Source: Pontibacter mucosus
GTDB taxonomy: Bacteria > Bacteroidota > Bacteroidia > Cytophagales > Hymenobacteraceae
DNA: 64,000 nucleotides
Assembly (NCBI RefSeq): GCF_003054055.1
Contig: NZ_QBKI01000010.1
Location: forward strand, 62,001 to 126,000
Reading direction: 5' to 3'
Positions within the stretch are counted from its first letter, which is position 1; each line of letters opens with the position of its first letter. Below the pieces are notes generated by a model that saw only the letters and a program-made list of their open reading frames with translations, had not been told where the DNA came from and ran no database searches. Below are positions 17,389-20,131 of the stretch, piece after piece. The position numbers and the translations under genes were made by a program.

Positions 17389-17396
17389 TACATTTG
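17389..17396 (+). promoter_or_regulatory. -7 element (TACATTTG) of aspS
   Basis: An exact TAnnTTTG match ending 28 bp before the ATG at 17424. An in-frame TTG at 17394 overlaps it and is rejected as start. Confidence 0.5.
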
Positions 17397-17423
17397 CAGA
17401 AAAGTATACAAGCTAACCATACT

Positions 17424-19184
<1,761 letters not shown>

Positions 19185-19209
19185 CAGCGGTTTATCAACA
19201 ACAAAGATA

Positions 19210-19240
19210 GGCCTGCCCCTGGAAATCAGCGGCAGGCCTT
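19210..19240 (+). terminator. aspS terminator
   Basis: A stem AGGCCTGCC / GGCAGGCCT followed by TTTTGTTTT. Confidence 0.82.
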
Positions 19241-19278
19241 TTGTTTTATCCCCATTTTATACTTTTAGCGGTGGGCAA

Positions 19279-19368
19279 TGTGGATAACTGTGTGGATTGA
19301 AGCATAAAGTCGGCCTTTATCCACGATCTAAAGTATAAATTGCTATAGGAGTGTGGATATGTGGATAA
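19279..19368. promoter_or_regulatory. Cluster of DnaA-box-like 9-mers
   Basis: Five sites in 90 bp: TGTGGATAA at 19279-19287 and 19360-19368 (exact complements of TTATCCACA), plus one-off or near matches TGTGGATTG (19291), TTATCCACG (19317-19325, reverse orientation) and TGTGGATAT (19352). They lie in a gene-free stretch between aspS and the intradiol dioxygenase gene. This could be an origin, a DnaA-titration site or a DnaA-regulated promoter. No AT-rich unwinding element as clear as in model origins was recognised, and dnaA is not in the window. Confidence 0.55.
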
Positions 19369-19447
19369 GCGCTGTTGATGGATGCGTGTGTATCCGCAGG
19401 GGGTGGGTGTACATGTTTTATACTTTTGGTGTGTAGCTACTGGGTAG

Positions 19448-20131
19448 TTATTCCGATGTTGGGTAATCAGGAATGTTCAGCCCAAGTATAATGTTCCGCT
19501 CTGCTACCTGCACTCCGTTCTCCAGCTTCGTCTGCACAATACCGCTGCCACCTCTGTTTTCAAGGTTACGCCGCCAATCACTTGTCAGGCGCGGGTCTCC
19601 TTCAAAAAGAATGTCGTCTATGTAATATTCGTTCGGGAGGTTTGGTTCTTTCACCAGGATATGGATGTGCTGCGGATCTTTTCTGCCAGGATAAGCGCCT
19701 GGGCGGGTTGTATAAATATTGAATTCTCCTTCCTCGCCTGACTTTACCCAGCCCCGGATATGACCGTGTGGTTCTATTTTCTGATCCAACTCGTCGCTGG
19801 TTTTGTAAACTCCCTCACTGTTGGTTTGCCAATAGTAAAGTATAACACCTGAGGCAGGTGTTATGCCATCAGGCATGTATACAGTGCCACTTATCAGCAG
19901 TTTTTGTCCTGGCTCCTTCCAGGCAGCGCTGGTATCTGTGGCGTTGATGCTCTCTGGAATACCGATATACATAAGTTCACAGGTGTCGCAGTTACCGCCT
20001 ACCCTGGAGGAGCCTTGCGGTGTGGCAGAAGCTGCCTCTTTTCCTAGATTCCCATTGACTTGCCCGTTGCAACCAGCGCCCAGTAAAAGTATAAGCAGCG
20101 CTGGTAGGCATCTGTTAGGATGTATAAGCAT
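19448..20131 (-). CDS. Intradiol ring-cleavage dioxygenase-like lipoprotein
   Basis: 227 residues. An N-terminal lipobox (LLLGAGC, lipidated Cys near residue 21) is followed by the beta-sandwich of the intradiol dioxygenase family. Iron-ligand motifs are present: a YYW tyrosine (about 125), PGAYPGRKDPQHIHI with Tyr and two His. Soluble relatives cleave catechol or protocatechuate with Fe(III). Exported Bacteroidota homologues are of unknown substrate. The protein should be membrane-anchored outside the cytoplasm, unlike classical enzymes. No aromatic catabolism genes are nearby. Confidence 0.82.
   Translation of the reverse strand: MLIHPNRCLPALLILLLGAGCNGQVNGNLGKEAASATPQGSSRVGGNCDTCELMYIGIPESINATDTSAAWKEPGQKLLISGTVYMPDGITPASGVILYYWQTNSEGVYKTSDELDQKIEPHGHIRGWVKSGEEGEFNIYTTRPGAYPGRKDPQHIHILVKEPNLPNEYYIDDILFEGDPRLTSDWRRNLENRGGSGIVQTKLENGVQVAERNIILGLNIPDYPTSE

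Follow-up and report, generated by a model that had tools for sequence, protein, structure and literature searches.

When DnaA boxes crowd into a short gene-free gap, the gap may be the replication origin, a site elsewhere on the chromosome that acts on DnaA, or a site with no part in initiation. To our knowledge, how initiation is kept to once per cycle has been little studied in the Bacteroidota; a literature search over titles and the opening parts of abstracts returned, among the matches listed, no extra-origin DnaA locus in this phylum, and a search for Pontibacter together with DnaA returned no paper. The question is raised here by the gap downstream of aspS in Pontibacter genome G000, a 5.23-Mb draft in 23 contigs, within a stretch of 64,000 nucleotides (C10:62001-126000; hereafter the window). 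On balance, this gap is probably an extra-origin DnaA titration or inactivation site that is datA-like in layout, a reading drawn from the clustering of the boxes, their conservation, the convergent layout and the position away from the origin.

DnaA boxes in the gap downstream of aspS

The initial annotation described two exact and three near boxes within 90 bp, in a gene-free gap of 260 bp between aspS and a lipoprotein gene. Both descriptions were borne out: the near boxes are those starting at 19317 and 19352 (one mismatch each) and 19291 (two), and the gap measures 263 bp by its ORFs, with a neighbor that matches PF00775 (Table 1). Beyond those 90 bp, the same gap contains two more one-mismatch boxes (19192-19200 and 19246-19254), bringing to six the boxes that match TTATCCACA either exactly (two) or with one mismatch (four). 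The annotation had made no mention of the convergence of the flanking genes, aspS (stop at 19184) and the lipoprotein-like gene (end at 19448), on the gap.

Table 1. Positions of the DnaA boxes downstream of aspS, the flanking genes and a second cluster (window coordinates unless a contig is given; genome counts refer to the 16 Pontibacter genomes that carry the cluster).
Feature	Position	Strand	Basis or remark
aspS, aspartyl-tRNA synthetase	17394-19184	+	PF00152, PF02938
Convergent gap, containing the whole DnaA-box cluster	19185-19447		263 bp; ORFs; conserved in relatives
Box B1, TTATCAACA, 1 mismatch	19192-19200	+	between aspS and the aspS terminator; kept at ≤1 mismatch in 10/16 genomes
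aspS intrinsic-terminator-like hairpin, then T-rich stretch	19209-19239	+	inverted repeat, fold, alignment
Box B2, TTATCCCCA, 1 mismatch	19246-19254	+	box scan
Box B3, exact TTATCCACA	19279-19287	-	kept in 16/16 genomes
Box B4, CAATCCACA, 2 mismatches	19291-19299	-	box scan
Box B5, TTATCCACG, 1 mismatch	19317-19325	+	kept in 12/16 genomes
Box B6, ATATCCACA, 1 mismatch	19352-19360	-	kept in 14/16 genomes
Box B7, exact TTATCCACA	19360-19368	-	kept in 16/16 genomes
Weak box-like TGTTGAT element, 3 mismatches to box, adjoining B7	19373-19381	-	conservation
Lipoprotein-like protein with dioxygenase domain	19448-20131	-	PF00775
Cluster between aldehyde dehydrogenase and ECF sigma genes (ALDH-ECF)	G000 C8:32968-33164 (L011:9969-10165)		box scan

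That chance would rarely produce such a grouping, as the annotation also held, is confirmed for the clustering itself: six boxes were observed where 0.03 were expected in 177 bp (Poisson P ~1e-12), and P is ~1e-7 to 4e-7 once corrected for the scan of the window. The window is not box-rich overall and only the clustering exceeds chance; TTWTNCACA occurs three times against 3.96 expected, and boxes of at most one mismatch number 15 against 11.3 expected, a count reached by 12 of 100 shuffles. The draft genome as a whole contains 54 exact boxes, compared with 18 copies of a reversed control. The AT fraction is 0.55 in the whole gap and 0.47 in the window.

Two features set the layout within the gap. 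The terminator-like hairpin downstream of aspS (fold -25.4 kcal/mol, z -4.6), the stem of which is present in 11 of 11 aligned sequences, separates B1 from all other boxes, and B6 and B7 share one overlapping base. The weak TGTTGAT element beside B7 has a mean major-allele frequency of 0.92 over 16 genomes.

The gap also contains three TTTATACTTT repeats, at 19255, 19330 and 19416. They were considered as part of the element or as promoters and were dropped, being copies of a motif that is dispersed in the genus and varies between copies of the gap. The 8-mer TTATACTT, found at the same three positions, has 98 copies in the window; it occurs 800 times in 800 kb of G020 (13 for its mirror) and 911 times in 900 kb, where a third-order Markov model predicts 82. 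It is strand-symmetric, is richer outside long ORFs (554 of the 911 copies) and just after stop codons, and no copy occurs in 14 kb sampled from Rufibacter or in 83 kb sampled from Hymenobacter. It is similar to a DNA uptake sequence or to a motif of terminator stems.

Conservation of the boxes and turnover of the neighbors

aspS was located in all 50 Pontibacter genomes, and the presence of the cluster among them is all or none: the 300 bp after the gene hold three to eight boxes (at most one mismatch) in 16 genomes and none in the other 34. With 34 of 50 genomes lacking it, the genus can do without the cluster. The closest match with a species name is the aspS locus of Pontibacter chinhatensis (99% identity), and among five named Pontibacter no box was found in P. 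indicus, P. ramchanderi, P. aquaedesilientis and P. virosus. Outside Pontibacter, the matches listed include no aspS locus followed by more than one box within that distance. On the aspS tree, the 16 carriers fall into two clades, one of three genomes and one of 13 in which every member has the cluster, and the tree requires at least two changes in cluster presence.

Among the carriers, the order, orientation and spacing of the boxes are kept, while the spacers and the downstream neighbor vary. Counted from the aspS stop, boxes lie at 94-96 in 16 of 16 genomes, 132-134 in 12, 167-170 in 14 and 175-178 in 16. B5 is missing in G004, G043, G008 and G021; the first three, which have no box at 132-134, each have one at 79-80, and G021 keeps the box register with no exact box. 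B6 is missing in G019 and G022. B2 is kept in 11 of 16 genomes, four of these 11 having exact TTATCCACA, and in the larger clade, 12 of 13 genomes read TGTGGATT at the position of B4.

Pairwise identity averages 0.905 for the four core boxes, compared with 0.553 for the spacers and 0.582 for aspS third codon positions, and a column test gave p ~1e-11. As judged from these alignments, the boxes are under selection. A neutral or chance cluster that simply persisted through recent common ancestry would fit the confinement of the cluster to two clades of the aspS tree; however, relative to G000 the third codon positions have diverged (0.52-0.85 identical) while the core boxes stay conserved (0.83-1.00), and we consider neutral persistence highly improbable.

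The genes around the boxes are less constant than the boxes. aspS lies upstream of the cluster in 16 of 16 copies, and the lipoprotein-like neighbor seen in the window is replaced by other genes in nine of them. Taking the downstream neighbor as the next real-looking gene of at least 70 codons (two short ORFs, one in G008 and one in G001, were passed over as likely spurious), it is a dioxygenase-like lipoprotein in 6/16 copies, a nuoN-type proton-antiporter-like protein in 6/16, a beta-lactamase-family protein in 2/16 and an alpha/beta-hydrolase in 1/16. Family searches covered the window's lipoprotein and nuoN-type genes, two more nuoN-type genes and three others, and the rest were assigned by likeness. 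All four kinds point back at aspS, in 15 of the 15 copies with a neighbor called; the 16th copy (G023, 788 bases of sequence) contributes no call.

Because the next gene is of four kinds and yet convergent in 15 of 16 copies, the cluster does not serve as the promoter site of a fixed neighbor, and a promoter role was rejected on the convergence of the flanking genes and the variability of the second one. An identity as a known RNA family was likewise rejected, all Rfam matches to the gap scoring below the gathering score. These observations bear on a broader alternative, in which the cluster would control transcription, with DnaA serving as a roadblock or regulating either a small RNA or read-through from aspS, and would take no part in initiation. 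The position of the terminator-like hairpin between B1 and the other boxes speaks for transcriptional control, but two flanking genes that both point into the gap, the second of them exchangeable, and the low Rfam scores speak against it, and we regard it as unlikely.

The aspS gap, the chromosomal origin and other box clusters

The initial annotation had allowed that the gap could be oriC and had proposed cumulative GC skew as a check, a distant minimum counting against an origin here. As G000 is a draft in 23 contigs, skew was sampled in relatives whose chromosome is almost closed: in G020 with 40 samples of 20 kb, to which finer sampling was added, and in G001 and G021 with 20 samples of 20 kb each. 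In G020 (C1, 4.98 Mb), cumulative skew has one minimum (4.145-4.250 Mb) and one maximum (1.52-1.625 Mb), which finer sampling narrowed to ~4.225-4.230 Mb and ~1.56 Mb. In this genome the aspS cluster, at 3.5816 Mb, is ~0.65 Mb from the minimum, and skew is negative there and in the samples on either side. In G001, the minimum (~1.99 Mb) and the cluster (1.3205 Mb) are ~0.67 Mb apart, and in G021 the minimum (1.385-1.500 Mb) is 0.48-0.59 Mb from the cluster (0.9078 Mb). In the window, the skew profile is mostly positive on both sides of the cluster.

A better candidate for the origin lies near mnmG. In G020, a 1198-bp gap (4,236,244-4,237,441), two genes downstream of mnmG (PF01134) and preceded by ybeY (PF02130), is ~6-12 kb from the fine skew minimum and contains 14 boxes with two mismatches or fewer, without a single exact one. 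The weighted box score of this gap is 16, compared with a mean of 3.8 and a maximum of 10 in 100 mononucleotide shuffles, and its most AT-rich 40 bp reach 0.88, against 0.70 in the aspS gap. The counterpart in G000 is at about C1:274,584-275,496. We consider the gap near mnmG the likely chromosomal origin of Pontibacter, far from dnaA; in G020, dnaA is at the start of the record, ~0.75 Mb from the skew minimum when C1 is taken as circular, in keeping with the annotation's premise that the origin need not adjoin dnaA.

The aspS gap is not the replication origin. If it were, DnaA would bind the boxes, melt nearby DNA and load the helicase, and it does share with bacterial origins a DnaA-box cluster within a gene-free gap. 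Gene context cannot decide the matter, given the distance of dnaA from the skew minimum in G020, and the competing candidate near mnmG has no exact box. However, an oriC identity is rejected by skew in three relatives, in which the minimum is ~0.48-0.67 Mb away, and by the G020 samples, in which skew keeps its sign on either side of the cluster. Unlike an origin, the aspS gap has no AT-rich unwinding element comparable to that of the G020 candidate beside its boxes, and 34 of 50 congeners lack the cluster, whereas the mnmG-side gap lies near the skew minimum and has weak boxes that score above all shuffles. An origin in the aspS gap thus has next to no probability.

Relative to the oriC candidate, the aspS cluster is at -655, -684 and -676 kb in G020, G001 and G019 (-13.2, -14.5 and -14.2% of the chromosome), the origin of G019 having been positioned by comparing it with G020 and G001 rather than from skew in G019 itself; in G021, the cluster is -0.48 to -0.59 Mb (-8.7 to -10.8%) from the inferred origin. 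A second cluster, with seven boxes of at most one mismatch, lies between aldehyde dehydrogenase and ECF sigma genes, at +515, +553 and +504 kb in G020, G001 and G019 and, in G021, between +0.51 and +0.63 Mb from the inferred origin. It has the same overlapping box pair, TGTGGATATGTGGA(T/A)AA or a one-letter variant, and DNA-level matches to it with E up to 0.01, some of them short or weak, were obtained in 23 of 50 genomes. Because the relatives share synteny, which could by itself produce such similar distances, the agreement does not count separately as a sign of selection for position. Exact boxes lean mildly toward the origin in three relatives, the origin half holding 29/43 (p 0.016), 30/49 (p 0.076) and 33/56 (p 0.11), with one second-contig match left out in G019 and one in G001, and with the G020 count leaving out five of 61 matches.

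A third cluster was observed upstream of mraZ, which heads the division and cell-wall gene cluster, in a region matched in 50 of 50 Pontibacter genomes. In G000 it is a triplet directly upstream of mraZ (C5:42265-42311; L010:9966-10012), consisting of a box, 20 bases and two boxes head to tail, and mraZ was confirmed to adjoin the matched region in 12 of 12 loci examined. Box pairs of the mraZ type (at most one mismatch, counted genome-wide) occur in 49 of 50 Pontibacter genomes and in 26 of 150 other genomes of the family; in the six non-Pontibacter genomes checked, all of one genus, the pair is upstream of mraZ in every case. The triplet suggests that DnaA may control the division cluster. 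A further site in G000 (C1:595473-595664; L013:9874-10065) has five boxes of at most one mismatch, two of them exact, and G020 has an exact pair (3904355 and 3904466) that agrees with it in spacing (111) and directions.

Comparison with known extra-origin loci and a possible role

Among known DnaA loci outside the origin, the closest in layout is datA of E. coli, where the ends of glyY and queG converge on a gap of 269 bp (263 bp in Pontibacter) with four boxes of at most one mismatch. In both organisms, near-consensus boxes lie in a non-coding gap outside oriC, behind a translation gene and a terminator (the tRNA-Gly operon in E. coli, aspS in Pontibacter), and the spacing of the sites is conserved. 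E. coli datA is described as lying ~10% of the chromosome from oriC and behind a terminator or attenuator (PMC5742627, PMC10950094), compared with 9-15% for the cluster in Pontibacter relatives. It restrains initiation by promoting hydrolysis of DnaA-bound ATP (PMC5742627), and read-through of the tRNA operon past the terminator is reported to control IHF at datA (PMC10950094). For datA and the DARS sites of E. coli, sequence, spacing and relative distance to oriC are described as kept across 59 genomes (PMC4585315), and E. coli boxes are described as crowding toward oriC in a way that suits titration (PMC12371093).

The two loci also differ. Their neighbors are not the same and no sequence homology is claimed; B6 and B7 of Pontibacter overlap, and the E. 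coli gap has an annotated 54-bp ORF, yjeV, in its end. An E. coli-type IHF consensus was found in 0 of 16 cluster copies, with a pattern whose controls were mixed. This absence says little, as the pattern, an E. coli consensus, detects a single site in the datA gap but gives no match in the DARS2 region, for which two IHF sites are described (PMC4585315), and the host may use another bending protein. For the datA-like titration site that the initial annotation offered as its alternative, conservation, gene layout and position stand in favor, but no E. coli-type IHF match was obtained. Points against the datA-like reading are that IHF result, with its mixed control, the 34 of 50 genomes without the cluster, the lack of exact boxes in G021 and the weak lean of boxes toward the origin.

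A DARS-like site would bind ADP-DnaA and promote its exchange to ATP-DnaA, and so promote initiation. E. coli DARS1, which we take to lie between uvrB and ybhK, and DARS2 are likewise extra-origin clusters with boxes in both directions, and the uvrB-ybhK gap is convergent too. However, a two-mismatch scan of that gap gave one weak box, and no core spacing was recovered from the E. coli loci to match against the Pontibacter boxes. B5 is opposite to B6 and B7, as in the DARS core (PMC5742627), but it is missing in 4 of 16 copies, and overall a DARS-like role appears improbable.

Clusters outside oriC are also found in B. subtilis, which belongs to a different phylum from Pontibacter. In a review, DnaA-box clusters of B. 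subtilis and Streptomyces are called analogous to datA (PMC5742627). Joint deletion of six B. subtilis clusters is reported to cause early initiation (PMC13220808, PMC5295017), while a review also states that these clusters have no significant role in initiation (PMC5295017). B. subtilis is described as a species without IHF, Hda or datA (PMC5295017, PMC13220808). In G000, three matches to the Hda model were obtained, none at the cut-off, and the best of them is DnaA itself; DnaA of this genome has a full domain IV (PF08299; match to 1j1v_A).

Reading the aspS gap as an extra-origin DnaA site, by analogy with datA, we suggest that its most likely effect is to reduce free or active DnaA, either through titration or through ATP hydrolysis. 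DnaA would bind the cluster cooperatively, through the overlapping B6/B7 pair together with B3 and B5, and the locus would be duplicated early after initiation. The doubled sites could then sequester DnaA or promote hydrolysis of DnaA-bound ATP and so restrain a second initiation in the manner of E. coli datA. A more elaborate version, which we hold only as speculation, is that Pontibacter reached a datA-like locus independently, that aspS read-through could tie the state of DnaA to growth, and that the locus is paired with the ALDH-ECF sink on the other arm. If the paired reading were true, both arms of the chromosome would carry a DnaA sink, in a genus where the one genome tested (G000) shows no Hda.

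The recurrence of the E. coli datA layout in so distant a phylum would suggest an advantage in placing such a site in a convergent gap downstream of a translation gene. A small, deletable and conserved site would also make once-per-cycle control of initiation directly testable in the Bacteroidota.
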